64,000 bases of DNA. Origin: Tribonema minus (taxonomy: Eukaryota > Sar > Xanthophyceae > Tribonematales > Tribonemataceae). Where the stretch lies: positions 186,001-250,000 of the forward strand of contig JAFCMP010000026.1 of NCBI GenBank assembly GCA_017506865.1. Direction: 5' to 3'. The notes beneath the pieces are model-generated. The model saw only the letters and a program-made list of their open reading frames with translations, was not told the origin of the DNA and searched no databases. The first letter of the stretch is position 1. Every line of letters begins with the position of its first letter. This document shows, piece by piece, positions 16,043 to 49,206 of the stretch. Made by a program: the position numbers and the translations under genes.

Positions 16043-16123
16043 ATGGCGAGGCTGGTGGCGAAGTGGCTCAATGAGGAGCTCAAACTGGACTCGCCTGTGG
16101 CGGCGGACACTCTCGATCAGGAG
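16043..16123 (+). CDS. SPEF2: CPC1/SPEF2-like exon 1: start of CH-like domain
   Basis: 27 codons from ATG 16043 to GAG|GTCAGC, phase 0. KWLNEELKL is the family's first-helix signature. Intron 1 (16124-18686) is about 2.6 kb and contains CCCTAA-type tracts at 17990-18035, 18340-18370 and 18470-18540, and a ~45-bp direct repeat (17815 and 17945). Confidence 0.82.
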
Positions 16124-19100
16124 GTCAGCATTTGAAACACTTCCGTTGTACACTGTTGAGAGTACCGCATTGGATCGCATCGCCACCCATGCCTATAGTG
16201 TCTGTGGTATGTGTCATTGTCAGTCAGAGTTGCGCTGCGCTGCTCAGTATCCAGTAGCGTGCACATGGCGTGCTTCCGACCACATGAACATCAGCACGCG
16301 CGCAGAAAAAGAAGTAGGCGTGGTGGTGCGGTGCGGAAGGCGCTATTAGTTCGAATGAATTAGTTGATCAATGGCAATGGTTTCATCGTGAAGTAGAACT
16401 CGCACCGGAAATTGGGAGTTGCCGCAGCTGCTAGCCTGAGCAACAATGGCATCAAAGATGACTGTGAGACCTGCCTGACGATGCCATTCCACGCCAACAC
16501 CTGCGCATGGAGCAGTTGAAGTCAGTTCGCAGGTTGCACGACTACAGTGACCGAGCGCATGTGGATGCTTCTGTTGGCATTTACATTTTGGGAAGCAGAT
16601 GCACGGCCAAGCACAGCAATGTGCAGCCATCTTCAGTTGAAGTCCGTGTGCTCAGATCACGCTTCGTTGCCTGATGCGCCGGCCGGTGACAGATTCAATT
16701 GCTTGAAGAATGCAGATGCAAGGGGCCATAGGCATACTTCAAGTGATGCACTCAGCCCAGCTGGACCATCTGCAGAGCAGCACGAGGCTCTGCGCTTAGG
16801 CTCTATGACAACACGATGCGCCGAAGAGCGTGACGACACGCATGCTGAGCACTGCCCGTCGTGCCGTGTGCATCTGGCAATGGCATGGCATTTTTATCCT
16901 CCGTGCAATTTCCATGCAATCAAGGATCATGATGCAGCACATCATGAAGCTGCTAGGTGTGCTGGCCATGCAAGCCAGCTTGTCATCAGACTGATCATCC
17001 CAACGGCGAGCTGACAACATGAGGAACCAAACATGCCTCTGTGTATCTGGCCGTAGGACGCGACACATCATTGCACGCACAGGGCATGCTGCCGTTCCCA
17101 GCAGCTTGCGCTGCTGATTCTCACAATGCAAAGTTTCCCTAATGCAAGTTTAAACGCTCGCAGCGACGTAGAGTCCGACGTTCGCGTATTCTACCTGCAG
17201 CAGTGCTCAAACAGCTTAGCCACAACATCTGAGCACCCCCCTGCAAGCAACTGCCATGATGGACAGCGCCGCGTACTACGTGCAGAGCGTTGCTGAATAC
17301 TTCTAACGAAGATTCAGGTCAGGCACTTCGGATCTCTGACCGCAGGCGCTGTGCGCTGACGTACTTCAATCATGCCTCGTCGGCTGGAAGCATGGCTCAG
17401 CAGCACAGGCGCCAATCTCGGAGCGATGCAGTCACGATTGCGATCATCACGCACTGCAACGACCCGTAGACATCATCCGCAGCGCTAGAGTGCCGGCGGC
17501 ACTGCTTCGACAGCGCGTGCGCACGCCGCGGCGCTGCGTTGGCGCTCGCGACACGTGCCGCTTCACCTGCCGACATATACACTTGAAGTATTCCGGTAGT
17601 GCGACGGGCGCATGCACCAACGCGTGGCGGAACCGCATCCGGCGCGACGACGGCTCCATCGTGAAGACGACGCACAGTACTTTGTGTCGCTCTGATGTCG
17701 GTGCATTGGCTAGCCGCCTATGCATCGCCAGCGTGCCCTCTCGCGAACCCGTATTCCTTGTAGCCTCAGTGGCGCGCGCTTTCCGATCATCTTCACATTC
17801 CATACATCCTGTGTGGCCGGTGTTGCTGTCGGCTGAAGTGGCGCAGCTGCTTCGGCGTGCCCTCACCTGCGCCATTCTCCTCTGCAGCCTCGGCGCGGCA
17901 GCACGCACTTTTCAACTGTCAAGAATGCCCTTTTCATCCCTGTAGAGGCCGGTGTTGCTATCAGTTGACGTGTTGCAGCTGCTTAAGCTAACCCTAACCT
18001 AACCCACCAACCCTAACCCCCACCCTTCACCTAACCCTCTGCCAGCAGCCCCCATAAGTGCGCTGCACGCTCACGTGCACCCCACGCCCCTCCCAGTGTG
18101 TATTGGCGCTGCATGCAGCAAGCAGCATGTGTGTGCCGTGCGCGCGTCGCAGCACGGCCCTCCTACTCTCCCACCTAGTTGCAATCACATAAATGCGCCC
18201 CTTGTACGCTTAGATTTTCTTGGTAATGTGCATACATGTTGAGCTGTGTTATCGCAGCATGCGCCTGGGTGCGCCCGCCTGCACGACCCTCTCCCGGCCG
18301 CGGTACCCCCCGACACGATTTGCCGATGCAGTTCACCGGCCCTAACCCTGACCCTAAACCTAAGTTAGGACGGCAGGACCGCGCGCACCGCGCCGTCACT
18401 GCGGGCTCACCCGCTGCAACACTGGGTTCCGCGCCGCACGCGCTCGCCGCAGCACACCATGCCCCCTCGGCGTAGGGTTATGGTTAGGCGTTAGAGTTAA
18501 GTTTAGGGTTGGGGCTAGTCTTAGGGTTTGGGTTTGGGCGCACACTCCCCCACGCTCTCAATCACCCCCCTCCCCGCCCGGCAGGCCTCATACAAACAAT
18601 GCGCATCTCACTCCCTCCCCTCCCCGCCGCCGCCGCCGCCCCCGTCGCCACCGCCGCCGCCGCCCCCGCCGCCGCCGCCGCCGCAGTTCGCCAGCGGCGC
18701 GCGCTTCGGCGACGTGCTCGCGCGCTGCGGCCTGCTGGACGCCGCCGCCGCCGCGCAGCTGCAGTCCGAGCTCGCCAGAGCGACGGAGGCCGACGGCGGC
18801 GGCAGCGACGCGCGCGCAGCGCGGCTGGCGGCGTTCCGCGCGGTGCTGGCCGCGGCGAAGGGCGCGGGGGTCGGCGCGCTGCCGCCGATGCTGGCGGCGG
18901 ACGTCATGACGGAGCGGCGCGGCGCCGCCGCGCAGCTGCTGCTGAAGATCAAGGTGCGCACCGACGCACTCGTGGAAGTCTGCTGTACCTAGTGGGCAAG
19001 TGTTCGAAATGGAGCGTCATAGGTCGTTGCTGAAGTTCGCAAGGCGCGGCGTCAATAGGCCTTCTTGCTTCTAGGGTTTCTTTGAGTCTAGGTAAAACGT

Positions 19101-22100
19101 TATGCGGTGGACGTCATGACGGAGCGGCGCGGCGCCGCCGCGCAGCTGCTGCTGAGGATCAAGGTGCGGGCACCGCGTGTGTCGGACCCTTGCAGGCAGT
19201 CTATGTGTTTCGGGCCATCACTGGTGATGCACAGATGGTTTTGCTGACAAACAGAGAGGGATGAAATAGTGAATGGGATATGAAGTAACTGGCGGTGGAC
19301 GTCATGACGGAGCAGCGCGGCGCGCCGCCGCGCAGCTGCTGCTGAGGATCAAGGTGCGGCGCGGCGCTGCTGCTGCTGCTGGAGCACTGCAGAGGACGTT
19401 TCCACTGTCCAGAAGTCAGTGCGTTTAGTTCATTGGTGATGATGCACTGATGCGCAGTTGGTTTTGGTGTCGTGTGCAAAGAATTGGAATACCGGTACGA
19501 GCGGCGTCGCGGCGCAGCTGCTGCTGAGGATCAAGGTGCGGCGCGGCGCGCGCGTTGGCGCTGCTGCCGGAGCGCTTTGGGGATGTGGTTCTATTGCTCG
19601 CCATCGGTGATGATGCACAAATGGCCTCAAGTGTGCTGTCATACAGAATGAGACAACTAATGAATGGAATGAAGTGATGAAGTATCGGTACGAGCGGTGC
19701 TACCGCCTTGCAGCTGCTGCTGAAGATTCAGGGCGCGTGGCGATGCGTCCAGTGAGTCGATGGAGAGTGTGTCTGCTGCTGTATTGAAGAATAGAGTCGT
19801 TGCAGTAGAGCGTCACTGAGCGGTGCCGCTGTTGAAGTTCGCAAAGCGTGTCACATTCCTTCGCGCGCGATACATACTGCCTAATACATCGTGCCACGCG
19901 TCATGCTGGCTTGCCGATTTCTTTGCATGTGCCGCAGGCCACAGCGGAGGCGGCGCAAGATGCGGCGGATCGTCCCGCGCACCCCTTGGGGTTAGGTTTG
20001 TGAGTGAGGGTTGGGTAAGGGTTGTGCAACACCCCTTCACAAGCCACTCTTCCCAAGCGTCGTTCTCACACACCAACTTTCGTTCATGCGCCGCAGGCGG
20101 CAGCGGATGCAGCGCAAGATGCGGCGGATCGCCCTGCGCACCACCGTCCGCGGCCGCCGCCGCCGCTCGCGACGGTTCGGCCCAAGGTCTTCACGCGGCC
20201 GGGCCAGGTGATGAGCGCTGCTGTCACAGCTACTTCAACCGTGTGATGAGCTTCAGATTAACACCATTGCTGCCACCTCAGGTCGCGCACGGAGAGCAGA
20301 TAACAGCTGCAAGTGTGATTTGTGGGATCTGATAAGACAGATCATCGCGCCCGTACGACAACGATGATTATGAAATGGTCTTCATTGCCGCTTACAACGC
20401 TGCTGCGGCAGGTTGCATGGGGGGGCGGTGACCAGGCGACGCTGCGCACCGCGCGTTATCGATGGCGCTCGACCATATAGATCATCGCGCCCGTTACTGC
20501 TTCTGAAACTGTCTTTGCTGCCGCCAACCATGCTGCCGTGGCAGGTTGCATGGGGGGCGGAGACAAGGCGACGCTACGCAACAAGCACACTATTTGCTGT
20601 ATTTAGCTTCAATGATTTTACAGATCGTTGCGCTCATATGACAACGGGGATTTTGACATGGTCTTGGTTGCTGCCGCGGCAGGTTGCGTGGGGGGCAGAT
20701 GACAAGGTGACGCTGCGCGGCGCTTGTTATTAATGGCGTTCGACAATATAGATCATTCGCTCGTACACTGCTTCTGAAACTGTCTCTGCTGCCGCCAACC
20801 ATGCTGCTGCGGGAGGTCGCATGGGGGGCGGATGACAAGACGACGCTGCACGGTGCGCGCGCTCCTTGTGGTAACTAGCTGTACAGATCATTGCGCCCGC
20901 ATGACAATGGGGATTTTAACATGGTCTTCGTTAATGCTGCGACAGGTTGCATGGGGTGCGGATGACAAAGCGTCACGCAGCAAGGCGGCGCTGCGCGGCG
21001 CGCGCTATTGATGGCGTTTGATAGTACAGATCTCGCGGCCGTACACTCAGTGCTTCTGTCTTTGCTGCCGCGGCAGGTGGCGTGGGGGGCCGATGACAAG
21101 GCGACGCTGCGCGGCGCGCGCACGCGCAAAGAGCTGCTGCTCGCCGCCCCCGCGCAGCGCTACGAAGACGCTGCCAGGGCGCATGAGAGAAAGGTGAGCA
21201 CTGACGCGTTCATGATCACGATGTGCTTTGACATTGGAAGAGACGAGTGCTCCCTGAACACTTCATAGAGAGAGAACTTATGCATGAGGTATAGTGGTAC
21301 GAATATATGCATGTTCATGAGAGGCGCTTCGAAGACGCTGCCAGGGCGCACGAGAGGAAGGTGAGCACTGATCGCGATGCGTTAGTGCTCTCTGACATTG
21401 CAACAGTTGAGTGCTGCCTGTATACCTCTTTATTGAAGAAAATAGAATACATTTGTTATACGAGTATGCATATAGAAGTACATGTTCATGAGCGGCGCTT
21501 CGAAGAGCTGCCAGGGCGCACGAGAGAAAGGTGAGCACTGACGCATAAATGATCACGATGTCCTTGACATTGCGAGAATTGAGTGCTCCCTGTATACTTC
21601 TCAGAGTGAGAACTTTTACGGTTAGGATAGTAGTATATAGAAGTTCATGATTCTGCCAGTGCGCACGAGAGGAAGGAGAGCACTGAGTCATTGATGATTG
21701 CTGCAGCTGTGCTTCACGGCAAGAAACGAGTGCTCGCTGCATAGTCATACAGAAATGTATACTTCCATCTACTATAGAATAATGTACATTGTTCAGCAGC
21801 GGCGCGCCGAAAAGCACTGCTAGGGTGCACGAGTGGAAGGTGAGCAGCGGCGCATGTATGACCGTGGATAGGGTTAGCCATCTAAGCTGCTGGTGCGCGT
21901 TTGCAATGTCAGAAGCAAGCGCTTGCTTCAGACGAGGCTGTGTAGGTACATCCACTGCGTGTACTTTTCGTTGATTCTTGCTCAGGGCGCAAACAAGTCC
22001 ATATGGTAGATGTCCATCTACGTGTGTCTTTGTGAACACCTTGAAAGGGTCTCAATGCGCACTGTCGATCACCTGTCAACGACTACTACATGTACAGTTG

Positions 22101-25100
22101 AAGACACTGCCAGAGGCGCACGAGAGGGGGGGGTAGGGTCAGCCTGAATTACAGCATGAGGGGGGGGGTGCCCGTTGAATGACTGTGGTAGAATTCAAAT
22201 AGAAAGCCATTTTTTTTTATGATTTAACGGAATTTTGTTTTCTTTTGTGTAGCTGAAGCATGTTGCATTGCTCTGCGCAGGTCACCGAGGAGGAGGACGC
22301 GGCGGCGCGGCGCGCGCACGACGCCGCCGTGAGGCTGCGCACGGCGCTGCGCACGCGCGACGGCGCGGTGCACACGGCTCACCTCCACACGCTTCAGCAG
22401 GGGCACGGCGAATGGGCCAGAAACCAGGTACCTTCGGCGTACTATTGAATCACTGTGGCACAGGGCGTATCAACGCGCCCAAATTCATTTTTTTTGCAAT
22501 ATACTTCAAGCGGTGCACACGGCTCACCTCCACACGCTTCAGCAGGGACACGGGGACTGGGCCAGAAACCAGGTAATTCAATGTACAACGTACTCTTCAT
22601 TCATTATCCCATGGTGCGCTGCAGAGCCGTCTTGATCAGCATTTATCGTGCTTCAAAATGTGCAAGTCAGTACTTCAAGTGCGACGCCGCAGAGCACACG
22701 ACGCACCTCCACATGCTTCAGCAGGGGCACGGCAACCGGGCCAGGAATCAGGTACTTGGACGGACTTTCCAATCGCTCTGATGCAGGGCGCAACACAGCC
22801 CGGATGGTCAAAGTTCCTGCGATATGAATAAATGCCTTGAACGTGACGGTGCGGTGCACACATGCTGCGCCATTCACCCGCGCCGCCCGTGCACCTGACA
22901 TGCGCAGAAAGCGTGGCACAAGGGTTAGGGTTAGGGTTAGCGAGCTCGTGCCGCTCACTCAGACGCGACGACGCGTGCGCGCTGCTGCTGCTGCTGCAGC
23001 GTCACTCTCGCATGTCGAGCTCCGCCTACTACGCGAAGGTCCGCTCGTCGTGCGCTGCTGCTCTAGGAAGCTGACTCGATGACTCATGCTGACTCGTGCT
23101 TACTGCGCAGAAAGCGTGGCACGACGCCGAGCGGCGCAACCTCAAGTACGACGCGCCAGACGCTCTGATCCTAACCCTAGCCCCAGCTCTAACCCAAGGC
23201 AGTACTCTCCCATGGCTGCTGCTGCTCAATGTACGCTGGCCTACTCTTGAAATGCGTCGACCGCGCTAGTGCGCAATGACTCTGACTTGATGACTCACGA
23301 CTCCTCTACCCCCACATGCCGTGCCGCGCCGGGCCTGATGCACAAAGAGCGCTAGTGTTAGGGTTAGGTTGGTTTTAGGCTTAAAGTAAGGGTAAGGGTT
23401 GAGGTACGCTTTCCTCAACTACCCAAAGATCGCTTACCCATGCCGCCCGTGGCGCCTGACGGGCGCAGAAAGCGTGGCACAGCGCTGAGAGGCGCGACCT
23501 CATGTACTCGAGTTTCCTGACTCAATGACTCAATGACTCGCGCTGCCTATGCATGCGACATGCGCAGAAAGCGTGGCACGACGCCGAGCGGCGCGACCTC
23601 GCGTACGAGCTCATGCTGTCAACGCGGCGCGGCGCGCGCGCGCTGCTGCAGCGGCAGCGCGCCCTGCGCGACGCGCGCGACGGCGCCGCGTGGTGCGAGG
23701 GCAACCTGAACCGCCTCGGGCTGAGCGCTGCTGCAGACGGCTCCGCCAATCAGGTGCGGCCAACCACAATACCTCTTCCTTTGAAGAACTCGATATTGAT
23801 GGCGGTGGCAGTTCTCCTGCCGTGTGTTGCCAGTTGCAGTGAGTGTCTGGCACGCTGTTGCTGGCAGCGCCGCGTGGCTCGAGGGCAACCTGGACAGGCT
23901 CGGACTGAGCACTGCTGCAGGCGGCTCCGCCAATCAGGTGCGGCCATTTAAGACACTAGATGATGATGCTGGTGGGCAGTTGCAGCACTGCTACTTGCCG
24001 CATGTTGCCAACCTTAGTAAGTGTCTGGTACGCTAACGCTGTGGTGCCGCGTGGCTCGAGGGCAACCTGGACCGACTCGGACTGAGCGCTGCTGCAGATG
24101 GCTTCGCCAGTCAGGTGAGGCCATTTGTGACATATGATGATGCTGGTGGGCAGTTGTGCCTTGTATCACCAACCCTAGTTACGTATACAGAAGTATATTG
24201 GCATGCTTCCCCTGGCGGTGCCGCGTGGTGTGAGGGTAAGTTGGACCGGCTCGGGCTGAGCGCTGCTGCAGATGGCTCCGCCAATCAGGTGCGGCCACTC
24301 GTGTGTCAGTGGGCAGTTCTGGCGCTGGTCCCTGCCGCGTACCACCAACCTTAGTGAGTGTCTGACACGCTGCTGCTGGAGGTGCCACGTGGGTCGAGGG
24401 CAACTTGGACGGGCTTGGACTGAGCGCTGCTGCAGAAGGCTCTGCCAATCGGGTGCGGCCTTTGTGCATCTTGATGATATACCGGCGGGAAGCTCTGGCG
24501 CTGCCATGTAGTCTCCGCCACGCTGCCACTGACGGTCATGCAGGCCGTGGCGAGCACTGGTGCGGACAGCTCCATCGTTCAAACGGGGGCAGCAATGCCG
24601 GTGTAGGTCTGACACTGCCGTGTCGCCAGCCCTAGCCTCTGGCATGTCATATCTGACAGTTAAACACAGTTGAGGCTGAGCAATGCTGCCATGCAGGCAC
24701 CTGTACCAATCAGGTGCTGACCGACCTCATGCCGCCGCTGCAACACCCGAACCCTCACCTTAACTGTAACCCCAACCCCGTTGTTAACCCTAAACCTGGC
24801 ACTGGTCACACCCCTTCGCACTGGATCCCAAGTAGCCGCCTTACTGACACCACCCCCCCACCCCCTCTGCCCTGCCCCCCTTCCACCTGCAGACTGCAGA
24901 GGGCGAAGGCGGCAACATGCTGGCCACCCTGCATGCCGCCGCTGCCGCACGGCAAAAATCGCGAAAAGACCAGGAGTACGCGCAACTGCGCGACCACCGA
25001 GACCGCGCGCTGATGCAGGTATGTACTGATTTTCAATCCCCAAGAACCACCGTGTAGTAGTATAAATTTATTCGCAGTTTTTCAACATGAGTCTATACAT

Positions 25101-28100
25101 GCCAGAAAAAGCGGCCGCGCGCTGATGCATTAACCAAGTATACCTACCTACATGCGCATGCTGAGCACTGTGCTGGCTGCGCGACCACCACGACCGCGCG
25201 GTGATGCAGGTATGTACAGATATTCAACACCCAAGAAAATCACTTGCTCGTCGTTCGATTTTCTCAAAACAGGTTTATTCTCCTCAAAGGTTTTCAAAAC
25301 AGGTTCAGACACATCAGAAAAAGGTTGACTCATAGAATCAGTGCCCAAGGGGATACCTACCTACATGCCCATGCTGAGCACTGTGCTGCCTGCACAGAGA
25401 CTGCGCGCTGATGCAGGTACAAAGGGCAAGTATATATTGGTAACTTTTTAAATTCGTTTTAACATACATACTAGAAAAAGCTTTACCAATATGATGACTC
25501 CTCAAACGGATACATGCCTGCATGCCCATGCTGAGCACTATGCTGTCTGCGCGACGGCCGTGACTGCGCGTTGATGCAGATACCTATACCTACCTTCAGC
25601 GGCTGTGACATTGATGCGGCCCTGGCGGCGGCCTTTGTAGAATCACTGTGGTGTGAACGTGCCGGAAGGTGCATGCAATGCACCGCATACTCACAGGCAT
25701 GTGTGCGCCGCAAGTGACACCTCCTAACTTTACTCCCTGCTTCATTCAATCGTCAGGATCAACTCGCTGCCAATCGCCTCCTGACTTTATGCCCCGCTTC
25801 ATCGATCGCCAAAAAAGCCAAGAAAACTGACTGCCAACGCCAATCCTTTGCGCCCTGCTTTATCGTATCGTCAGGAGGAACTCGCTGCCAATCATGGCGA
25901 CGCCTTCGACCTCGATGCAGCACTGTTAGAGGCCCAGGCGCAGCGCGACAGGGCTGTACGGGTGTACGAGGCGCGGCTGCTGAGCGATGCTGCCGCACAA
26001 AACAAGGCGGATGTGAGTGGTTGTGCACATGCTGAGCAATGCTGACGTGTATGAGGCGTGTGCGCATGCTGAGCACTGCTGACGTGTATGAGGCGCGGCT
26101 GCTGAGCGATGCTGCCGCACACAAGAAGACGGACGTGAGTGGTTGAGGCGTGTTGACATTTACAGCTGCTTTGGGAAAACTGAGACTCGTGCTTTTCTAC
26201 AGTGTAGGTTGCTTTGGTATGTGATGCCTTTGCTTTCGGCAGATGGCTGAGCGATGCTGCCGCACAAAAAAAAATGTGAGTGGTTTGAGGCGTGCGCACA
26301 TGCTGAGCAATGCTGACATGCACATGGCGTCGTGAAGCATGGTAGGACTCTCCCAGCGTTGCTGCCGTGCAGCACAGGACAGATGTGAGTGCACGAGGCG
26401 CGGCTGCTGAGCGATGCTGACGGATGTGAGTGGTCGAGGCGTGTTCATGTCTACACCTGGTCTGGGTATTGAGACTCGTGCTTTTTTCTTTGTTGACTTC
26501 AGCCTTTGGCAGATTATATTATCTAAACAACAGCTTTCAGAGTTTGTTCTCGATTGCGAGTGGCTGAGCTATGCTGCCACGCAGCTCTGTGAGTGAGTGG
26601 TTGAGGAGCGAGCATACGGCTGAGCATAGCCATACCCTGAACCCCAACCCCACCTCTGATCAAACCCTGACCTAAAATTGGCCATATCCTGACCCTAAGC
26701 CTACCCATAACTAAGCCCTAGTCTGGCCATAGTTCTTGGAAGCTTGGTCCTGAGCGATGCTATGGCGCGGCAGCCCGCAGTTGTGGCGTAAAAATGCTGC
26801 TGGACTGCTGCAGCGGCACTGAAGCAGTGCAGTACGCGCTCGCTTTTTTCCGCGTTCGCTTTGGGTTGAGGGGGGCTTAGGGTCAGGGCTAGACACCGCA
26901 GCGGGCCGCCCGCGAAACCAGTCGATGAGCGTTTGTGCGAGGGTATGTATGGCAGTGGGCGTCAGGCATACCTGCCTACGTACAAGAGGCAATACATGCC
27001 TATTATCAGTGCTGCTATCGGCAGAACTCACTTCATCGGGAGGAGATAGCGCTGTAACAAGCCAGGGGGGAGATGATTTGATGTTGGGCGGGGGTGCTCG
27101 CTTAGGGTTAGGGTTAGGGTAAGCGCTGTCGCGTCTTACACTCACACGACCTGGGAAAAAAACGCCAAGTACTTGAATCTGAGCCCTTCGTACAAATGGC
27201 AGCGCTCGAAATCGTGACGCGCACACCGCACATCAGGTGGATTATGCGAGACTGAAGGCCATCAGCTGTCCACTTCCTACTGTGACCACACACACCCTAC
27301 TTCAAGTGATGACGCACCCGGCACAACACCCCCCCCCCCCCCCCCCCCCCAACGTATCCGCCGCAGACGATCGCGGCACAAAAAGCCCTACCCCTGCATA
27401 CCTGCCGACTAACCCCCCCCCCCACCATCCCCTGCGTATCCGCTGCAGACCATCGCTGCGCAAAAAGCGCAGCACATTGCCGCCTTCAAGGCAGCGCTCG
27501 ACCGCCTCGGCGACGACGCGCGCGCCGCCGCCGCCGCCGCGGCGCCGCAGCGCGAGGCCGCCGCCGCCGCGCGCAGCGCCGTCGCCGCCGCCGCCGCCGC
27601 GCAGCGCCACCGCCGCGCCCTGACGCTGGCGTGCGAGACTGCGCTCGGTCTCGCCGACCTCGCTGCGGATGCCTCCGAGGCCGGCGCAGCTGCCGCCGCC
27701 GCCGCCGCTGCTGCAGCGGCAGCGCACGGCAACAGCGGAGGCGGCAGCGCGGTCGGCGTCCGGGGCCATCTTGCGCTGCACCCGGCGGCGTGGCGCGCGA
27801 TGCGCACGGCGTTCGTGCGGCGCCGCGCCGACCCCGCTGCCTCCGCCCCTGCTGCTGCCGCCGCGGACGCCGCCGACGCGGCAGAGGACGCCGATCTGGA
27901 GGCAGCGCGCGGCCGCGTCGCGCTGGCGCGGCTGGCGGCGGGCGCCGCACCGTGGCAGTGTCTGAGCAATGCTGCTGCTGCCGCTCTCGGCGACGGCGCC
28001 GCCGCTGCCGGCCGCAGCGCTGCCAGTGCTGCCGCTGGCACTGCCGCCGCGCCCTCCACTGGATTCACAGCAGCTGAATGTGAGAACGCTGCTAGTGGCA

Positions 28101-31100
28101 CGACGGGCGCAGCGGCGCCGGCGCCGGGCTGGGGGGACATGGCGGCGGACCTGGATGCTCTGGCAGCAGCGCTCAGCGGTGCAGTGCCGCCGAGCGTCGT
28201 GCCGCCAGGCGCGCCGGCGGCCGCTGCGGCGGCGCTGCGCGTGTGCGTGGCAGGTGCGTCGGCGCTCGGCGTATGTCATGATTGAAGATGCCTTGCTGAA
28301 AGCTTCACCTCTCATTGCTGGATGCTTCATTGTCGGAAAACATTATACTTCTGAAGTATTGGATCTGACTGGAGGAATGACTCGGCAGAGCCGGAAGCGC
28401 GAGACGTAGCTGTTGGAGATGAGAAGCGCGCAAGGTTTTTTTCCGGGGCATGCCTCTCGTGCCTCGTTTGGGTATATCAGTTGAGGTCTGAGCTTCGCCC
28501 CTGCGTGAAGGCGCTGCTGACGTTGTGTCAGGACACCAGTGCCTGGCGCAGCAGCAGTGCCCCACAATTCCACTTTGTCCCCACATCACCTCATCTTTTG
28601 CTCATTGCCTGGACTGTGTCCAACTTCACCTTCAGCCACCCAACTACAACTCCAACCATTCAACTTTAAACCCCTGTAGTGCTAGCACGCTGAGACTATC
28701 TAGCACGCTGATGCTGAAGTGGCGCGTCACCGTGTCCCCGATCTTCAGCGTCGCCCCGTATACCTACATGCGCCGCCTGCAACGGCAGCCCCAACTTGCT
28801 TTGTTTTTCCGGCGATGCGTCACGCAACAGTGCCACACACTCGCACACCCTGCGGACAGCCCCTTAGACAGCGGCAGCAGCAACAGAACCTCAACGTACC
28901 TCACCCCCCAACCCCAGCCCTAGTTCCAACACTGCACTGACCCGACGTCACCACATACATGCATGCCCTTGGACAGGTCCAGGGGCAGCAGCGCTCGACG
29001 CAGCGGCGGCGGTGGCGGAGGCGGCGCGCTGGCACGGCCTCGCGGCGTGCAGCCTGGAGGGCTGCCTGGCGGCGGTCGCGCGCTGCGTCGCGGCCGCGGA
29101 GGCGGAGGCTCAGCGCGCACAGGTGAGCGCCCCCTCTTGAAGTTTTGTTGCAGCACTGCTCAGCTGATGCTACGATATTTTGGAGGAGGACGCGGCAGGA
29201 GGCTGCAGCGCACAGCTCAGTGGGCACAGATGAAGTGTCATCTAAGGCAACGTTGTCGCAGCTTCGCTCAGCTGATGTTGCAGTGTTTTCCTAGGGAAGA
29301 TGGTCACTGGACCGGAGGCCTCAGCGGGTGCGGGCGGAGCATCACCTCTTGCCGTGGCACTGCAGCATCGCTCAGCACATGTTTCACGTTCCAACACACG
29401 CCGCCGCAGGAGCAAGCCGCCGCCGCCGCGGCCGCCACGAAAGAGGCCGCAAAAGACAAATCCAAGGCCAAAGGCAAGGACGCAAAGGCAGCAGCGCCGC
29501 CGCCGCCTGCCGCACCCCCCGCCCGCGCGGGAGACCCCGGAGACTTCAAGAAGGACCCTAATAAGGACTCTGCAGCAGCGCTCCCCGAAGGCCCGGAGCA
29601 GACCGCCTTTCGAGAGGCCGCGCTGGCGTATCACAAGTTCACGGCGGAGAGTAAAAAGGGGCCGGCGCCGGCGCCGCCGCTGGTGCTGCTGGACCTGCTG
29701 CTGCTGCACGTCGCGTGCGCCATTGCTCAGCAGAGGGGGGAAGGCAGGGGGGGGGTGGGGGGGGGTGAGGGAGGGGGGGCGGGGGGGGGGGGGCGAAGGC
29801 GCTGGCGGCGGGGGGGCGGGGCTGCCGCGGGGGGTGAAGGAGGGGGGGTGGGTGCTCGTCGGGTACCCTACCACGCTGCTCGAGGCGAAACTGCTGGTGA
29901 GATGATGTAAACTAGTGTGATGTTTTGGTTGCGGCGAGCGCCTTGTGAATTGCGATGCGTATCGTGTGCTGGTTCACAGCAAAGCATCTAGGGAGATGGT
30001 TCATCAGTGAGTAGGTCCATGGTGAGGTGATAACAGGGTTAGGGTTAGGGTTAGGGTTAGGGTTAGTTAACTCTAACCCTACCCAGGGCCTGGTGACATG
30101 ACGTACAAGTATATGAATACCCTCGCTCCTTAAAGAGGGAAACGTGCGCAAGAACTTGCTTCAATTACCGGGTGCAAGTCCGAAGGCGGGGGTTGCAGGG
30201 GATGTGGAAGTGGATGTTCAAGATCATTGGATGCCCTAGGACCTAAAACAAAACCAAAAAATGCGAGTGCAGCTGCTGCTCTGCCGCACGCCACACCAGC
30301 TCTTACGCATGTTTATCAAAATGTACCGCACCGGGTCTTGAATGCAAGAGGCAAGACATGAGTGACTCACTCAGGAGAGACACAGGTAACTCACTCAAGA
30401 CTTGTACACCACGTGGGCTGCTGCAGTTCAAGACACCATTTAACCATAAAATAGTCCAGTTGCTGACCACGCCCGCGCCTCCCCTGACCCATCCTGATAA
30501 TAAAAGATGATGACCAACTGCTTCCCACCTGCGTCTAGAATCGTCACCTGAGCCGTTACTGCAGGATCACGCGGGCTGCTTCAACAGAAGTGTCATTCTC
30601 TGAAGGTGCCGAGCCATCGCCATCGCGTCGCGCACAAACCCTAACCGCCCCCTTGACCGGTCTCCTGACTCCTCATCCCAACGCCACCACTGACAGCGAG
30701 CACGCCAACTTCAACCCAAAACTTCAATGATGACTCTTCATCCCAACACACTTACCACCAACAGGAGCCAGGAGCACACCAACTTCAACCTGCAACTTCA
30801 ACACCCCTGCATGCATGCAGGAGCACCGCCTGAGCGGTTACTCCGACGACGACGTCCTAACAGCGCTCAACAACGGCAAGCCCCCCAAGAAGGATCCCCC
30901 GAAAAAGACGCCCTCCGCAGCTGCCGGCACCAAGAAAGGCGCAGCCGCCGCTGCCGCCGCTGCCGCCGCTGCCGCCGCCGCCGACGCCGCCGCTGCCGCT
31001 GCCGCCGCCGCCGTGCCGCCGCCGCCACGCTCTGCGCTGGATGCTGTTCTGTGGCTAGGCGGCAGCAGCGCCGCCATCGCTGCGGCTCGCACTAGCGACA

Positions 31101-34100
31101 CCGGCGCCGCCGCCGCTGCCGCTGCTGCTGCCGCTGCGCCGAGCGCGGAGCAGGAGCTGTGGGGATTCTGGGGGGCTTCTGCGGGGGGTGAGCTCGCGGC
31201 GCGCATGCCGCTGGCGCTGGGCAGCGGCGCAGAGGACCCCCTGGCGGCGGCGGCAGCGGCGGCGGCGGCAGCGGCGGCAGCGGCGGCAGCGGCGGCGACG
31301 CCACTGGCGACGCCGCGCCCTGACACCTGCGTCACAGCGCTCAACGCTGTCACCAGAAGCGCTGCTACTGCCCCGCCTTTGGCACCCGCCGCTGCACCTG
31401 CTGCTGCTGCTGCCGCCGCTGCTGCTGAGGCCAATGGCGGCAGCGGTGGCGGCGGCGGCGGCGATGCGGTTGCTGGTGCCGACGCCCCAGCAGCAGGGGA
31501 TGCCGTCTGTTACGATGCTGCCGCGGAGGCGCGCTCGCGCCTGACAGAGGCGGCATACCTGCTGCTGGAGGCGGCGGCAGAGCGCGCTGCTGCTGCCGCC
31601 GCTACGCCCGCGCATCGTGGCAGCACTGCCAGCGGCGGCAGCAGCGGTGGCGGCGACAGCGCCAGCCCAGACAGCACCGGCAGTGGCAACAACAATGCTG
31701 GCGGCGGTCGCAGCAGCAGCAGCGGCTGCAGCAGCAGCACCGCCGCTGCTGTCGCTGCGGTTGCCGACGGCGGCGGCAGCAAGACTAAAACGGCGGCGGC
31801 AGTTGCAGGGGAGGCGTGTCAGGCGGATGCGCTGTCGGCAGCGCTGACGGAGGGACTGGATGGCAGACTTGCGCGCAGGCGACGGGTGAGCGCTGCTGCT
31901 GCTGCTGAGCGTTGTGATGCACGTATCTGTCAAGCGTCGGCATGGAGCCATCTAACGGCGGCTGTGCGTCTGATCCGAACTTAAATCCTCATAGCCTGCT
32001 GTGTGACCGCGTGCAGCGACTGCCGGTTGCGCTGCGGCTTCACATCGTGTCTCGCTTATGGCCCCATCGCGCATTCATGTTCATGCAAAATCCAGTCACT
32101 ACAATTCTCACCCCCCTCGGCGTCGTGCGACCGCGCGCAGCGACTGCCGGTGGCGGCGCGGTGTCACATCATGTCTCGCTTGTGATCAATCCAGACACCA
32201 CCGACGATCTATTCTCATTCCCTTATTCCCCTAGGCACCATCAATCCTCATCCTAATTCTCATCTCCCCTGTGCGTCGTGCGACCGCGTGCAGCGACTGC
32301 CGGTGGCGGCGTGCCTGTGGCAGGCGCACGCCTCGGGTGAACGAAGGCTCCGCCTCCCCGACCTGTCGCGCGCGCTTCATTCGTGGCGCGCCGCCGCCGC
32401 CGCTGCCGCCGCCGCCACCACCGCCGGCAACCCCATCGCCACCGCCGCCGCTGATATGGCCAAGGCATTCCCATCCGACGGTGATGCCGGCACCGCCGCT
32501 GCCCCAACTGCCGCTGATAGCGGCGGCGGCGCTGCGGCGGCGGCGGCGGCGGCGGCGGCGCTCGAGCGCACCTGCACCAGCGCTCCGCAGCTGTCGCTGC
32601 CGCTGCGCGCGGCGGAGCACGCGCTCGCGAGCGGCGTCGCGGTGGCGGATGCGCGGTGGGAGGGGGTTTCCGGGGGGCTGATGGCAGCGCTCCAAAGGTA
32701 CCTGGTGCGGCAGGGCACGGATGCCGCAGCAGCGCTCATCCCGCCGCTGGCCGATGACGAGGTATGTACAGTAGTACACTGGAATTGTGTGCTTTGGCAT
32801 CATTCGATGATCGGCGTCATTCGGTGCCATTGAATTGTCGAGTATAACTGATCCGTGATCTATACGGTGCAATGTCGATACTATCGAGCCATTTTGGTCC
32901 GGCCAGAGGCTCTGACATCAGCGCATTTGAATAGTGTCGAAGACAGGGATGCTGCAGCAGCGCTCATCCCGCCGCCGCCCGATGACGAGGTGCGTCGCGC
33001 ACGAGTGCATGTTGAAGTGTTACTCAAGCTCAAGTTCCTATAGGAGATGCATGTGCAAACTTCGAGGTATCTGGGTCTCAATGAGCAGAGACTGAGTCAC
33101 ATGGGAAGGAAAAGGGTCACATTGGCAAAAGGGCGTCACGTTGGCAAAATCGGAACCCATTGGCAGAAGTAACCAGCGTAGAACAACACCTCTACTAGCA
33201 GCGTTGATGTGCACGTTTACCCTTTCCACTCCCTATGTGCAATGCTCGCGTTCACCTCTCCACTCCCCATGCGCGTCATCTCAGATCCGGACCGCCATCA
33301 AGTAGTTCAAGCTCGCTGCGCCTGTCCCGCATTGGCCGCATGTTAGCACGGGGTATCATTTGACACGCGGTCGGCTTCCCCCGCTGTACTTGCACAAAGC
33401 GCCCATTCAACGCACAGTCCCCATTCGCACTCCCTTCGTGTGACTCTCCTCTCAGGTCTGGACCGCAGTGGAGGAGTTTGAGCTCGCTGCCGGCGACATT
33501 GCTGAGCATCGCCACGCGGCCTTTGAGCACGCAGAAGCAGCCTTTTCAAACGCCGCTGACGCAGCGCTGGCGGCGTGGGCGGCAGCGGCGGGCGCGGCGG
33601 CGGCGGCGCTGGCGGCGGCGGAGGCGGCGGCGGCGCGCACGCGCGGGCGGTTCGTTGCCGCGTGTGTAAGCGCGCTGCGCGCTACTGAGGATGTGACCGC
33701 GATGGGGGACGGGAGCGCGCCACAAGAGGTGGGTACCTAACCCTAACAGTTAAAACCTAACCCTAACCCTTCTAAAACTCCGGCAGCCTTTCCCGCGGGC
33801 AAGGTCACGTCCATACACTCGATTTCTGCCGCAATGCAGCGAGCCTACATGAATCAACACACGATAACCACTTGCACGTACTTCTTGAAGTATGTATCTG
33901 TGTGGGTGGGTGTGCATGTGTGCGTGCGCATTTTGTTGCCGCGTGTGTGAGCGCGCTGCGCGCCACTGGGGGCGTGACTGCGATGGGGGGACGGGAGCGC
34001 ACCGCATGAGGTATGCATGTACTTCAAGTACTTGAAGTATGTGGGTGGGTGGGTATGCATGTAGGTATGTGTGGTTCGTTGCTGCGTGTGCGAGCGCGCT

Positions 34101-37100
34101 GCGTACTACTGAGGTCGTGATCGCTTTGTGCGACAGGAGTGCGCCGCATGAGATATGTATGTACTTCAAGTACTTGAAGTATCTGTGTAGGTGGGTATGC
34201 ATGTACGTACATGCGGTTTGTTGCCGCGTGTGCAAGCGCGCTGCGCGCTGCCGAGCATGTGAACGCAATGGGGGATGGGACCGCGCCGCAGGACGCATGT
34301 GCGTATCTGTGTGTATGTACGTGTGTGCAAGTAGGTGGGATGCCAATAGCTGGCACTCGTCATCTTGCCCGATCAGCCAAAGCACTGCACGCCAGATGCA
34401 TCACGTGGAGGGCCAGGGCGCGTGCCAGGGTATGTATACGCATTGCACGCGTCATCGCTCAACAGCAACACACTGCTCAACACCCTCAGGCGTGCGCGAC
34501 AGCGGCGGCGGCAGCGCGCGCGGAGGCAGCAGCGCTGCTCAGCGACCTCCGCGAGCCCCTGATACTGGCGCTGCTGCCAGCGGAGGACCCCACGGCGGCA
34601 GGTCTGCTCGACCTGCTGCGCTCCGCCGCGGCCGCCGTCGCCGCCGCTGCCGCCGCCGCCGCTGCTGCCGCCGGCGACCACCAGCACGTCGCAGCAGCGG
34701 CAGCAGCAGCAGCAGCGGGAGAGCACGACCAGCCCGTGGCGGCAGCGGCGGCGCAGATTCAAGCAGCTGAAGCGGCGCCCGCAGCTGCTGCCGCTGCGGC
34801 AGCGGCAGCAGCGGCGGCGGCGCAGCCAGCGGCAGCAGCGACAGCGGCGGCGGTGCGTGCGCCGTCGACATCGGCGGTGCCGCCGCCGCCGCGCGAGGCC
34901 GCGGTCGATGTGTTGAGCGCTGGGGATGCAGCAAGCAGCAGCAGCAGCAGCGCTCAGGGCGCAGCGGCAGCAGCGCTCGTGGCGGCGGAGGCGGCGGTCG
35001 CGCGCACGCTGGCGGTGCGCGAGGCGGCGCGGCACGCGCGGCGGCTGCGCTGCGTGGTCGGGCGGCTGGCGGCGGCGGCGCGCGCCGCGGAAGGTGCGCA
35101 CGCGGGGGTACATCGTTGTAAGGGCGAGGTTACTGCGGCGTGCTCGGTGCCTCAGGGTTAGAGTTAGGGTTACGGTTGGGTCAAGGCAGTGCCGCTTGCG
35201 TGGTGCCTCAGGGTTAGGGTCAGCGTTACGAGTAGGTTTAGGGTTGGGTGCATCGTGGCCGCAGTCGTGCCTGATCTTGATGACCTGTGTACCTCACCCC
35301 CTGAACAAAGCGTTTGGCGTCATGCCTCCTCCCCCCCCCGTCGCCCCCCTTCCGGCACCCCAAACGCCTGATCCCGAGTGCAGGCTTTGTGGCACGCCCA
35401 GCTCTGGGTCTGCTGGCCTAATTCTAGTCCTATGGCACAGAGTACTTGCTCTGGTGGTGCACATTGCGCCTGCCATACACCAAATTCTGCCCCAAACCGT
35501 GTGGGCGTGCCTGACATGCTCATCTCAAACTCAACTCTTACCACTAACTTCAACTTCAACTCCAACCAGCAACTAACCCCTACACGCGCAGACTACGCCG
35601 CGGCGGCGCGCGCGCACGCATGCAACTTCATCTCTTGCCACTAACCTCACCTTCAACTCCGATCTCCAAGTAACCGCCTACGCGCAGACTATGCGGCGGC
35701 GGCGCGCGCGCGCGTGCGCCGCGGCAACGGCGCACGCATGCTCTCCGGGCACGCCGCGGTACCCCTTAGCCTACACCTGCCGACCGCGCCGCGGCGGTAC
35801 GCGCAGCCCGTCACCTCACGCGCATTTGTGTAATTTCAAATTCAACTCTGACACTCACGAATCCCTGTGCGCAGATTACGCGGCGGCGGCGCGCGCGCGC
35901 GTGCGCTGCGGCATCGGCGCGCGCACGCGCTCGGAGCACGCCGCGGTGGCGGCGGCGGCGGCGGCGATGCGCGCGGCGCTGGCGGCGGGCGACCGCGCGC
36001 TGCTGAGCGCTGTCGCGCAGCACGGGCCCTGCCTCAGCGCTCAGCACGAGGCGGTCGCGGCCGCTCACCCGGATCAGCTCGTCAGGTGCGTGCGAAGCGC
36101 GTGTGCCGAATAAAAACTACCAAAAGTTGAAAAGGTCAGTAGTCATCAAAGTCTCGCTGAGGGTGCAGAAACGGTACGGTGTCAGCGTCCCTGGGGGCTG
36201 GAAAGGGGGCCATGCCTCAGCGCTCAGCACGAGGCGGTCGCGGCCGCACACTCGGAGCAGCTGGTCAGGTGCGTGCAAACTGCGCTTTGTCAAGCGTGAA
36301 ACAATCGGTGACAGTCAAAGTCTCGCTGAGGGCAAAGAGAAGTCCAAGTGTGTCCCATGTCTCAAGGGTTGCGAAGAGGGGCCGTGCCTCAGCGCTCAGC
36401 ACGAGGCGGTCGCTGCCGCGCATCCAAATCAGCTCGTCAGGTGCGTGTTATAAGCACGGCAGCAGTTGTGGCTCCAGTATCGCACGGGCAGCCGTTGTCC
36501 TAAGGCTGGGGGGGCGTCAAAAAAATTCCCGTTGTCCACAACGCTAGCGTTCCATATTTCTTTGATATCTGTGCCCATTCGTCATGCAGCTGCCCCTTGT
36601 ACACAGTACTTGGGGCTTCATATCCCTGAGATTTGCGCCCGCGTGTCGTGCAGCTGGGGGGTACGAACATCTTTATCTCCATTCTCTGAAAAGGCCAATC
36701 TTGCACACAGTACTACGTAGGATTTCACACGTCCCGTAAATTCGTGCCCGTCTGTCGTGGAGCACGGGGGCATCATAAAAATATTCTCGTCCGGAATGCT
36801 ACGTGGCATTTCATATCCCTTGACATCATGCCTGTTTTTTTGTTTTTCGTGCAGCGGGGCGCGTGCGAGCTGCAGCCGCGGCAGGTCCTCAGCCTCGCAC
36901 GCCGCCTGCAGGACGCCTTTATGTGTGTTGGTACTCTCGCAGTTGTGGGGCGTCAACGAATACCCCTTCCAGGATGCTACGTGGCATTTTCAGATCCCTT
37001 ACATCTGTTAGATCCTGTGTTTTTGTTTTTCTTGTGCAGCTGGGGGGCGTGCGAGCTGCAGCCGCGGCTGGTCCTCAGCCTCGCGCGCCGCCTGCAGGAC

Positions 37101-40100
37101 GCCTCCGTGCGGCTGCCGATGATGGCGGTTGACAAAGCTGTCGCCTGCATCCTGCGCTGGGCGCACGGCACGCCCGAGCCCTACGACACCGCGGGCGCGT
37201 TCAACGACGCCGAGGTGAGCTTCAACTTCACCTTCAAGTTTAACTTCAAGATGAACTTCAAGATTATGCCGATCGATGCCGCTGTCGCCTGTATCCTGCG
37301 CTGGTCGCATGGCACACCTGAGCCCTACGACACCGCTGGCGCGTTCAACGACGCTGAGGTGAGCCGCGCGGCGGGTGAACTTCAATGTGAACTTCAAGTT
37401 CAACATTGAGTTGACCTTCAAGATGACGTCGAGGTGGATGGCGCAGCTGTTGAACGTCAAGTTTAACTTCAGCTTTCATTCAAGATGACGCTGAGGTGAG
37501 CCGCATAGCTCTTGAACTTCAAATCTGATTGCAAGTTGAAGAAAGGTGTTGGAGCGCGCGGCGCCGGAAGCGGCAGGCGAGTGACAGCGCATACGCCGCT
37601 TGAACGTGGGCGTTCGGTATGCGCTGCGCATGCTGCGGCGAATTGGCCTGGCCCTGATTATTCTACTGGCATGCACAACGACGCTGAGGTAGGCCGTGCG
37701 GCCTCCTCGCGCCGCTTGATCTTTGAATTGAACACGTGTTGAAATGTGCTGCAGCCTCATCGGGACGCTCGTTGAGGGGCTCATAGCATTGCACAAGCGT
37801 ATTTTGCTTCTTGCAGTGTGGCAGAGTGGCCAGAAACACAGCACAATGGCCGTTCTGTAAGGTCTGATGTAGCGTAGCGGAAGCATTGTGCTGCCACAGC
37901 CTTGCCTCGATGCCGACCGAGACTACGCGTTGCTGCTATCGGGCAGCACGCACGTGCAAGCAGAATCTAATCTACCCACGCAGTTGAACATGCGCCTCCC
38001 CACAACCTCAACGTTGCGCTCTGGGCTGCTGCACTCGACCCGTGCTCACAACTGACATCCCCAAGGCTGCTTGTGAAGAAACGTCGTTTGAAAATGAGTC
38101 TGCAATGCAAAAAACGTTGTTTGAAAATGGTGCTGCCGCGGCCTCCGCTGGGCTGGGGGGGGGGGTGGTCACCCTGGCTAAAAGTGGTTCTCTCACATTG
38201 AACTACGCCATTGTGCCCTGCGGACCTCTGCTGTGCGGACAACGTCATTCGAAAACGGTTCTGCCGCGGCTGCCGCTAACTACGTATTACGCGCTCGCGT
38301 CGCAACTTCTCGACAGGCCGCGCGTCACGTGCCCGCGGCGTGGCGCTCCGAGGCGTACGTGACGCGCGTGTGCTCAGCGCTCGCGTCACCTGCGTGGGCA
38401 ATCCCGCTGCCGGCGTACTGCGGCAGCGCTCAGCCCGCAGGTCGCACGCCGCGCGCCCCCGGCGTCGCCGCGGAAGCGGCGGCATGCGTCACTTCAACCG
38501 GCGACGTGCCCGCCGGAGCCGCTGCGACGGCTGCGGCGGACGGCGCTGCCGCGCCGTCCCATGGCGCGGTGGCAGCTGCTCAGGGGAGACCGTCGGTGCC
38601 GGTTGCGGTGCTGCCGGGTAAGGTGGTGGGAGCAGTAGCAGCGGCAGCAGCAGCGGCAGCGCCAACGCCTGCGGCAGCAGCAGCGGCGGCACCGGGCCCG
38701 TCCGCAGCCAGCGCCGCCGCTGCCGACGCTGACGCCACCCCCATCAGCACCGACGTGGGGCCAGCTGCAGCAGCGGAGCCGCCGCCGCCGGCAGCGCCAG
38801 CGGACACGGCTGACGCGGCCGCAGCGGGGCCGCCGCAGTGGCTGCAGCCGCCGACGCTGATGTGGCGGCGGCTGATCCACAACCTGCTGTGCGCTCGCGT
38901 GCGCCGCGCGCCGCGCGCCGCGCAGCTGGCGGCGCTGCGCGATCGGTTCGAGGCGGCGGAAGGCGGCGGCGACGACCGCAATGACACGGCCGCGCTCGTG
39001 CTCGCGGAGAGCGAGCTGTGGTGCGACGACAGCGCTCAAGGCGAAGGTGCGTGCAGCAGTGCTCAGGGCGGGCGCATCGCCGCGCCGGTTTCTGAACCTG
39101 CCCCTAAACCTAAGCCCCCCACCTTTGCCAAACTTCTAACCCTTTTGAGTTGGGATTCTCTGATGAGGCGCCTTGCCCTGCTGAGCGATGCTGCTGTCAA
39201 CTTCACAGCGGTTCATGATCACAGCTACACGCCATCGCACCGAGCGCAGCCTCGTCACTGCTGAATGCGGTTCAGGCGTGCCAGATTGCGGCAGCAGCAT
39301 GCAACGGTACAGCATTGGCAGCGGCGATGCGCACAGTAGATGCAATTGCGCTTGCGGACGTCAGCGGACATCCTGTGCACTCAGGTGTTGTCGACATGCA
39401 ATCGCACGCACCTCAGGCATCTCGGTGCAGATACGACAGTCTCAATGCGTTGCCGCGCGATGCATGCATTGCGTTACGTGTGTTCCCGTGAGGAATCTAT
39501 TAAAGGAACCACAATAGAATCTATTAAAGGAACCACAATATATACCCGCAACACAGCATCGTGCAATTCTGTGTGTACCCGCAACAAACGTACAAACTAC
39601 CTGTAGCATAGTATCATGCAGCCATAGAGGTGCATGCAATTGTAACCACAACACGCGACAGTGTCACGTCAGTACTGCCATGCTGATGAGCGTTCATTGA
39701 CAATCAACGAGCGCATTACAGACACCAAGATGCAAGTGATTGCAGTGACAACACCGCGACAATGTCATGCAGGCACCGACTCGGGAATGCGCGCACTGCA
39801 ATTGTATCAACTGGACCTCTGGACGCACAATTTCAACTACTACAACGTCATTACGTGCTGCATTGCCATGAACCCGAGCTGAACACGGCCTCATCTGCAA
39901 TCGCATCCTCGTTGCATGCGCAGAATCTGAGGGCGACGGTGGCGACAGCGGCGCAGCAGCTGCAGCGGCGGCGACGCGCAAAGCCTATGTGGTTGCATTC
40001 TCCGAGACCAACGGCTGGCTCAACTGGCACTCGCTGCTCGCTGCCGCCGCGCTGCTGCCGCCGCCGCCGCTGCCGTCCGTGGCGTTCTCGGAGGGCCTGC

Positions 40101-40184
40101 ACCGAGCCATGGCAGCACTGGTCGACAGCGGATGCGACAGCGGCAGCAGTGGCAGAGGCAGCGGCAACGGCAGCGGCGGCGGCA

Positions 40185-40219
<35 letters not shown>

Positions 40220-40312
40220 ACCAGCGGCGGTCTCGCAGGCGGCGGTGCCAGCGGCAATGCCGGCGACACTGCCGGTGATGGCGCCAGCGACAGTGGCGGC
40301 GGCGGCGACGGC

Positions 40313-40343
<31 letters not shown>

Positions 40344-43600: not shown

Positions 43601-43700
43601 CACCACCAGCCGAGATGAGCAAGGCAGGATGAGGGCTCGGGGCTGGCAACAGACAGCAGCGCTCCTCCAGATCCAGAACACATATGTCATGACAGCTTGC
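40616..43700. other. Intergenic, small repeats only
   Basis: I find no supportable gene. Contents: a 20-nt poly-C (41254-41272); a degenerate GGGGTCATACTTA-type minisatellite (41330-41450); dispersed TTGCCGGCGA-like words (41610-41780); a ~35-bp duplicate containing GGGTACTGCAGCACAAC (42010 and 42056); and a direct repeat GGCAGTCATTGCTTCATG (42616 and 42651). Confidence 0.55.
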
Positions 43701-43739
43701 AGGGTTGAAGTGTTATGCCGCTCAAGCGCTCAGCTGAGC

Positions 43740-48265: not shown

Positions 48266-48414
48266 AAAACGCGCACCCTGTTCCAAGCACAGGTCAGGGC
48301 GCCCTTGTTGAACTGATTACCGCTGTTCCCGGCCGCTGTTTGTTTGCCGCTGATTAAGCCTGCACCGTGAAGCGATGTTACCGCCGCAGCGTACCGTTGC
48401 TGTCATCAAGGCGC

Positions 48415-49206
48415 TTACACCTGAGTCCTGAACATCTGCGGCAGGACAGCACAGCGCTATACATCGTTTGCGGTTTACGATTTGCGATTACACCTGAGTC
48501 CTGAACGTGGACAGAATAGACAGCATAGCGCTTAACGTCGTTTGCGGTTTGCGATTTGCGATCACACCTGAGTCCTGAACATCTGCGGCAGGACAGCATA
48601 GCGCTATACGTCGTTTGCGGTTTGCGATTTGCGATTAGTCCTGAGTCCTGCAACCTGCGGAGACAGCAAAGCGCTATCCGTCGTTTGCTGTTTGCGGTTT
48701 GCGATTAGTCCTGAGTCCTGAACATCTGCAGCAGGACAGCAAAGCGCTATAGTATCACGTCGTTTGCAGTTTGCGATTTGCGATTAGACCTGAGTCCTTC
48801 AACCTGCGGAGACAGCAAAGCGTTATACGTTGTTTTTGGTTTGCGATTTGCGATTAGACCTGAGCCCTGAACATCTGCGGCATAACAGCAAAGCACAACA
48901 CATCGTTTGCGGTTTGCGATATGCGATTAGGCCTGAGTGCTGAACATCTGCTGCAGGACAGCAAAGCACTATACGTCGTTTGCGGTTTGCGATTTGCGAT
49001 TAGACTTCCGTACTGCAATCTGTACTTAGACTGCACGTCGTTTGCGGGTTGCGATAGGCAATCAGACACGTCTTGCAAACCTGTGTGTGGACAACAAAGC
49101 ACTACACGTCGTTTGCGGTTTGCGATTTCCTGTTAAACCTCCGTACTGCAATGTGTATTTCAATGGTAGCACTGCAGTCGTTGGCGATATGTGATTTGCG
49201 ATTAGG
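48415..49206. repeat. ~71-bp tandem array, about 10.5 copies
   Basis: Units begin CGTCGTTTGCGGTTTGCGAT and continue TTGCGATTAGACCTGAGTCCTGAACATCTGCGGCAGGACAGCAAAGCGCTATA in degenerate form, at 48464, 48537, 48610, 48679, 48758, 48828, 48901, 48974, 49036 and 49107. Spacing is 62-79 bp. Non-coding minisatellite. Confidence 0.92.

Follow-up and report, generated by a model that had tools for sequence, protein, structure and literature searches.

Introns of Tribonema minus contain tandem, decayed copies of their own exon–intron boundaries. Self-BLAST and repeat searches of the window (the whole 64,000-nt stretch of DNA analysed here) reveal two kinds of copies in one gene: copies of the exon end, GT, and intron start, which lie downstream of exons; and copies of the intron end, AG, and exon start, which lie upstream of exons. 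Such copies recur in eight of nine intron-rich dynein heavy-chain genes elsewhere in the genome. The explanation that we favour, with moderate confidence, is that tandem duplications have arisen repeatedly at splice junctions, that the copies decay almost neutrally and lengthen the intron, and that splicing ignores the extra sites.

Junction-copy arrays in the window gene

The gene that bears the arrays (window 16043..40615, + strand) is probably a SPEF2/CPC1-like flagellar gene, as suggested by its exon model and by a weak alignment of its N-terminus with sperm flagellar protein 2 (9ijj_4M; E 0.67); CPC1 is the name that we presume to apply. The weakly aligned part is exon 1, which starts with MARLVAKWLNEELKL. 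A protein database search with the gene and an Rfam scan of the whole 64,000-nt window each returned no match. The gene model comprises 16 of 19 exons, numbered as in an earlier note on this DNA (all except exons 11, 18, and 19). Exons 1–8 have in-frame joins and GT–AG borders; exon 2, for example, spans 18687..18953 (+ strand), with its donor at 18953|18954. Exon 11 contains a G-rich run (window 29730–29830) across which the reading frame seems to shift.

Donor-side copies, all on the + strand, follow exon 2 (array 18894..19541; junction copies at 19163, 19353, and 19535), exon 4 (21154..21880; 21360, 21530, 21675, and a weaker copy near 21839), exon 5 (22352..22790; 22572 and 22751), exon 6 (23682..24478; 23937, 24114, 24288, and 24452), exon 7 (24986..25583; 25209, with weaker copies near 25418 and 25582), exon 8 (25962..26485; 26134, 26275, 26384, and 26439), exon 13 (32716..32991; a copy at 32989), exon 14 (33647..34299; units of ~142 bp, copies at 34152 and 34294, and one further unit, which ends near 34012), exon 16 (36024..36447; 36268 and 36440), and exon 17 (37137..37522; 37358, with weaker ones downstream). 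The DNA of the exon 4 array and that of the exon 6 array each match one place in the genome, and a genome search with the exon 14 array finds this locus only.

Acceptor-side copies, likewise on the + strand, form arrays upstream of exon 4 (20337..21121; copies at 20412, 20545, 20683, 20816, and 20946, with the real acceptor at 21077), exon 6 (22876..23608; 22908, 23111, and 23469), exon 13 (32001..32311; 32017 and 32141), and exon 16 (35531..35947; 35592 and 35688). A single upstream copy accompanies the acceptors of exon 3 (19918..20142; 19938), exon 8 (25728..25893; 25757), exon 9 (27353..27468; 27367), and exon 17 (36790..37104; 36855). In the exon 6 acceptor array, a TTAGGG tract at 22921 comes after the outermost copy.

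Self-comparison with the modelled exons assigns copies to 8 of 16 donors and 8 of 15 acceptors, and a list merged from two methods contains 41 copies at 19 junctions. Two of these, at 33564 and 33588, are assigned to one acceptor and fall within an alanine-rich exon; both are probably low-complexity artefacts, and 39 copies at 18 junctions are left when they are removed. Weaker copies can be discerned by eye near 21839, 22100, 25418, 25582, 33282, 37432, 37496, and 37690. The earlier note had described about 50 decayed copies beside at least 12 of 19 exons, donor copies after the exon and acceptor copies before it. Our analysis bears this out: the 39 listed copies and the weaker ones bring the total near 50, the exons involved are 2–9, 13, 14, 16, and 17 (12/19), and the self-comparison of the locus displays the polarity described.

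The window also holds other repeats. A diverged tandem array of ~nine units with a ~184-bp period lies outside the modelled gene (43686–45330), a minisatellite of ~eight copies with a 73/149-bp period lies at 48411–49205, and the segments 51672–53723 and 60906–63601 hold a long open frame that by eye resembles a Ty3-type integrase, along with a separate 531-bp direct repeat, the copies of which are 97.7% identical and 2165 bp apart.

Recurrence in other genes and anchoring on splice junctions

To assemble a gene set, we searched the genome (158.18 Mb, 554 contigs) with Pfam AAA_8, obtaining 36 matches that represent ~15 dynein heavy-chain loci, of which 11 were taken and four were not. Two intron-poor dynein genes served as protein references, and the exons of the other nine were placed with a purpose-written spliced aligner; only junctions that agreed with both references were kept, so that the dynein junctions are inferred from protein similarity. 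Among solved structures, a dynein heavy chain best matches an axoneme chain of 8glv, which we take to be from Chlamydomonas. The full set comprises the window gene and the nine dynein genes, with 158 donors and 155 acceptors, and is mostly flagellar.

Nine of the ten genes carry intron-side copies. The earlier note concerned one gene; its arrays are present there, but they are not confined to it, eight of nine dyneins having them too. Copies are present on the intron side of 44/158 donors and 35/155 acceptors and on the wrong side of 1/158 donors and 0/155 acceptors (1/313). At control points inside exons, copies are present at 28/744, 20 of the 28 being in the alanine-rich window gene; at control points inside introns, they are present, in either direction, at 846/3855. 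Probes consisting of exon only (37 nt, match ≥27/37; exons <45 nt, which account for 2 donors and 1 acceptor, left out) detect 71 donor-side copies at 39/156 donors and 46 acceptor-side copies at 28/154 acceptors; the chance level, taken from non-local stretches in other genes, averages 1.0 per class (117 copies versus ~2).

One dynein gene, C537 (L009–L010), has no copies at 36 junctions, no local repeats, and no telomere-like tracts; its composition is like that of the other stretches, and it has introns (median 422 bp). The two intron-poor dynein genes (L019–L022), which have long open frames and intron-rich relatives in the genome, have almost no local repeats. In two non-flagellar chaperonin genes, 2/6 local repeat pairs are, by eye, junction copies, one per gene: one is a perfect 21-nt copy across a donor, and the other, an old copy (84%), extends as far as a donor. 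One more pair stops at an acceptor AG and includes no exon sequence. Two 10-kb stretches chosen regardless of genes, with exon positions unmapped, have 15–16% local repeat cover. Elsewhere, L027 has what appears to be the same 674-codon open frame in both orientations (the first 60 residues are identical as displayed) and probably contains a long inverted repeat.

Successive copies are spaced by a median of 143 bp (quartiles 119–175, n=146, 10 genes). The earlier estimate of 130–210 bp thus holds broadly, the measured spacing being slightly shorter. Each unit contains a median of 52 nt of exon at donors and 45 nt at acceptors, and 88 or 106 nt, respectively, of intron. The exon part exceeds 80 nt at 5/79 junctions, versus 39% expected under uniform placement of units of the observed size (minimum across 2000 simulations, 23%). 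In exons of at least 160 nt, the depth goes beyond 80 nt in 2/25 donors (a depth of exactly 80 nt being uncounted) and 2/28 acceptors. Exon depth does not correlate significantly with the length of either the unit or the exon. Up to eight copies are present at one junction. The clearest array, at the C531 acceptor, consists of six copies upstream at intervals of 161 bp; across 45 nt of exon sequence, four match the real junction exactly and two differ from it at one position.

These figures bear on the strongest competing explanation, namely that small tandem duplications arise at random, that exonic ones are purged while those in introns and at junctions are tolerated, and that the frozen exon copy makes the junction cases easier to recognise. 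Repeat cover per base is even throughout introns and vanishes ~60–105 nt into exons, a profile that at first suggested untargeted duplication; the near-neutral decay described below would also be expected, and intron-internal repeats have similar offsets (median 147, n=51, a figure that includes some repeats between junction copies). The family counts overturned that suggestion. Among 89 repeat families identified in the full sequence of 137 introns, 36 are donor-anchored, 31 are acceptor-anchored, 0 are anchored at both, 9 touch an exon but fall short of the criterion for a junction, and the remaining 13, a class that may include copies of unmodelled exons, are intron-only. Because frozen exon sequence favours the detection of junction families, we also cut off the exons before searching. 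Junction-linked families still account for 48/65, and for 41/51 and 30/33 at stricter cut-offs, versus 26% (depth ≤80 nt) to 36% (depth ≤140 nt) expected from random placement; the enrichment of exon-edge copies beside splice sites, on which the earlier note's proposal depended, is therefore present in the genes tested. Without the window gene, in which the arrays were discovered, the counts are 35/48, 29/38, and 21/23, versus 27–38% predicted. In the same type of search, 32/65 families lie within 25 nt of an intron end, versus 8.0 when the same spans are placed at random. Junction-linked families may outlast others, since their exon member cannot be deleted, and doubling their odds accordingly raises the expectation to ~53%, versus 74–91% observed. 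Together with an exon depth that stops near 80 nt instead of ranging across the whole unit, these counts make purely random duplication rather unlikely. Overall, 19,037 of 22,032 repeat-covered intron bases in the 137 introns belong to splice-site-anchored families.

Decay of the copies and consequences for splicing

The copies tend to be less like the real junction the farther away they lie: in arrays with at least two copies, the nearest copy is closer to the real junction in sequence than the farthest in 24/37, and the reverse is true in 7. Copies differ from the real junction by a mean of ~12% in the exon part and 19–25% in the intron part. If the exon is frozen and the copies are free to change, the expected ratio of intron to exon divergence is 2 for real-to-copy comparisons and, under serial copying, 1–2 for copy-to-copy comparisons. 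The ratios across all pairs are 2.35 (118 pairs, 69 arrays) and 1.73 (87 pairs, 27 arrays; intron part more diverged in 21/27), and those across reliably aligned pairs are 1.78 (64 pairs, 44 arrays) and 1.31 (40 pairs, 19 arrays; 10/19). The reliability filter (intron alignment z ≥4) was added after the first result; the 205 pairs in all are those that remained once pairs with too short an alignment were dropped. Differences at codon positions 1, 2, and 3 are 0.11, 0.14, and 0.21 for real-to-copy pairs and 0.12, 0.17, and 0.20 for copy-to-copy pairs. The third-position excess between copies is not predicted by neutral decay alone; it could arise if the exon changed slowly and was copied on separate occasions.

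Many copies retain sites that look functional, and others have lost them, as the earlier note had observed: GT is kept in 58/71 donor copies and AG in 35/46 acceptor copies. Scored with a weight matrix, 37/71 donor copies and 21/46 acceptor copies equal or exceed the real site, which agrees with GT/AG retention in supporting the earlier description of many site-like decoys. Such abundance of strong sites could mean that the copies are selected, being kept to recruit the spliceosome or to provide alternative messages, and copied exon parts are indeed slightly less diverged between copies than intron parts. We consider selection of this kind improbable. Mean scores are lower for copies than for real sites (5.6 versus 9.2 for donors; 4.1 versus 8.1 for acceptors), and spacing modulo three (45/49/52) has no frame preference. 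In copies found without using the junction, GT identity is 0.88 (125/142 bases), close to the 0.86 of the exon flank, and AG identity is 0.80 (74/92 bases), no higher than the 0.83–0.84 of the flanks. An excess conservation of GT and AG that was apparent at first disappeared once copies were found in this way. Similarly, conservation of the copied exon parts between copies, seen at first in 30/37 arrays, became a ratio of 1.73 upon realignment and 1.31 upon filtering, and is at most weak evidence for selection. Nothing clearly indicates that splice sites influence whether a copy is retained or removed; a pressure to purge decoys is not supported, GT and AG being lost no faster than the flanks. 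The decay of the copies is near neutral.

Use of a copy would damage the message almost universally: where GT or AG is kept and the phase is known, it would introduce a stop or shift the frame in 64/65 cases at donors and 52/54 at acceptors (116/119), which both counts against selected alternative messages and implies that the cell mostly ignores the copies or destroys such messages. Since roughly one copy in two equals or outscores the real site, and since using one would almost always ruin the message, site choice cannot come from site sequence alone. The right site is the first in donor arrays and the last in acceptor arrays, and both kinds of array are tolerated. A first-come choice would fit donor arrays but fail for acceptor arrays; pairing of sites across the exon would fit both. 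If deeper copies resembled exons, a limit on exon depth would be expected. For Volvox and Chlamydomonas, pairing across introns has been inferred in a Volvox study (PMC4378016).

Introns with copies are longer than introns without (median 854 bp, n=55, versus 492 bp, n=82; p 7e-12), a difference that does not by itself prove growth, as longer introns have more room for repeats. The intron growth by repeated tandem duplication proposed in the earlier note accordingly stands in part: duplications across junctions and longer introns are observed, and growth as their outcome is what we infer from them.

Possible origin and relation to known systems

We propose the following course of events. Tandem duplications of ~143 bp would arise again and again at splice junctions, each unit comprising the last or first 20–75 nt of the exon and ~90–105 nt of the adjoining intron. 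The copy joined to the exon body would remain the working splice site, and the new copy would turn into intron. Later rounds beside the exon would drive older copies outward, and their near-neutral decay would yield a longer intron filled with decoys, which the spliceosome would ignore, probably through pairing of sites across the exon.

Local tandem duplication is the direct reading of the arrays. Dispersed elements are disfavoured because the three units searched match their own locus only (3/3 genome searches, in which the best candidates alone were scored and very common words were skipped). A mobile, introner-like element that inserts at exon edges would suit the repeat-rich introns, and many eukaryotes are reported to have introners (PMC9860276); nevertheless, every unit bears the sequence of its own exon, the three arrays lack the matches in many genes that define introners, and we consider such an element very improbable. 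An assembly artefact, to which we give almost no credence, could have given nearly identical arrays, for example the 161-bp copies upstream of the C531 exon, the wrong size, but it would not account for the average divergence of the copies or for intron-side copies in nine of ten genes with hardly any on the wrong side.

Telomere-like tracts are a further feature of these introns. TTAGGG/CCCTAA tracts of at least 10 bp number 119 in the 226 kb of the ten genes, with none in modelled exons; shuffles of three genes give 0–0.2 per gene. Repeat ends coincide with 32/119 tracts, versus 21.8 expected (p 0.016). Across 32 stretches, the TTAGGG count correlates with duplication cover (rho 0.63; for G+C, rho 0.44), intron content being a confounder. 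Telomerase-related insertion (PMC2246262) and CST-Pol alpha fill-in (PMC8355091) are both described as acting at breaks, and for this reason our leading guess for the source, held with low confidence, is the repair of breaks near splice junctions, possibly involving fill-in on both strands. It is a tentative idea that junctions are hotspots of small tandem duplication, perhaps through breaks at exon–intron borders repaired by telomere-type fill-in. In mouse and human cells, CST-guided fill-in by Pol alpha-primase at induced breaks is described as generating small tandem duplications (PMC8355091); like the present ones, these are short, tandem, and independent of a pre-existing repeat, and they require CST and Ku as well as fill-in at 3' overhangs. 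They arise at induced breaks in mouse and human, and a link to the present arrays would be by analogy.

The arrays resemble several known routes of intron gain in part. In potato RdRp, an intron was gained by a tandem duplication across one intron–exon boundary (PMC4974935). There, as here, the duplicated segment spans a single border (here at 44/158 donors and 35/155 acceptors), so that the copy takes over most of its splicing signals directly; there, a single event made a new intron, whereas here dozens of junctions bear copies, with up to eight at one junction. The Rogers model envisages intron gain by duplication of an exonic segment containing AGGT (PMC4974935, PMC2891723). It shares with the present arrays a tandem duplication that provides splice-site copies near the exon; in the model, an exonic unit yields both ends of a new intron, whereas here the unit is one existing junction with its intron, and 0/67 junction-anchored families contain both junctions of an intron. 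Duplication of whole exons with both splice sites, as in tandem exon duplication and mutually exclusive exons, is likewise not what we find, the exon part seldom exceeding 80 nt. Human introns in tandem arrays, reportedly described by Zhuo et al. in 2007, are said to consist of direct repeats with splice sites in tandem, which is similar, and to breed alternative introns, whereas here the copies look unused and are decaying. The 151-Mb genome of the green alga Haematococcus lacustris (47.3% repeats, AACCCT telomere motif) is repeat-rich, like the introns here, and its telomere motif resembles the TTAGGG tracts in them; the relevant passages of that report describe short repeats in tandem with no mention of splice junctions, whereas the repeats here are junction-anchored (PMC7617258). 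A literature search of titles and abstracts, with subscription papers mostly outside its scope, returned no account of such junction-copy arrays.

The finding bears on how introns grow and on how their sites are chosen. Intron lengthening is usually ascribed to transposons or random indels; here, most recognisable local intron duplication sits in splice-site-anchored families, in nine of ten genes, and junction arrays may let intron growth and correct-site choice be watched. The arrays constitute a natural experiment in splice-site choice and argue for pairing across exons, in contrast to what has been inferred for Volvox and Chlamydomonas. If junctions are indeed hotspots of duplication, then intron growth would be driven from the junctions themselves, and each intron would carry a dated history of its own splice site.
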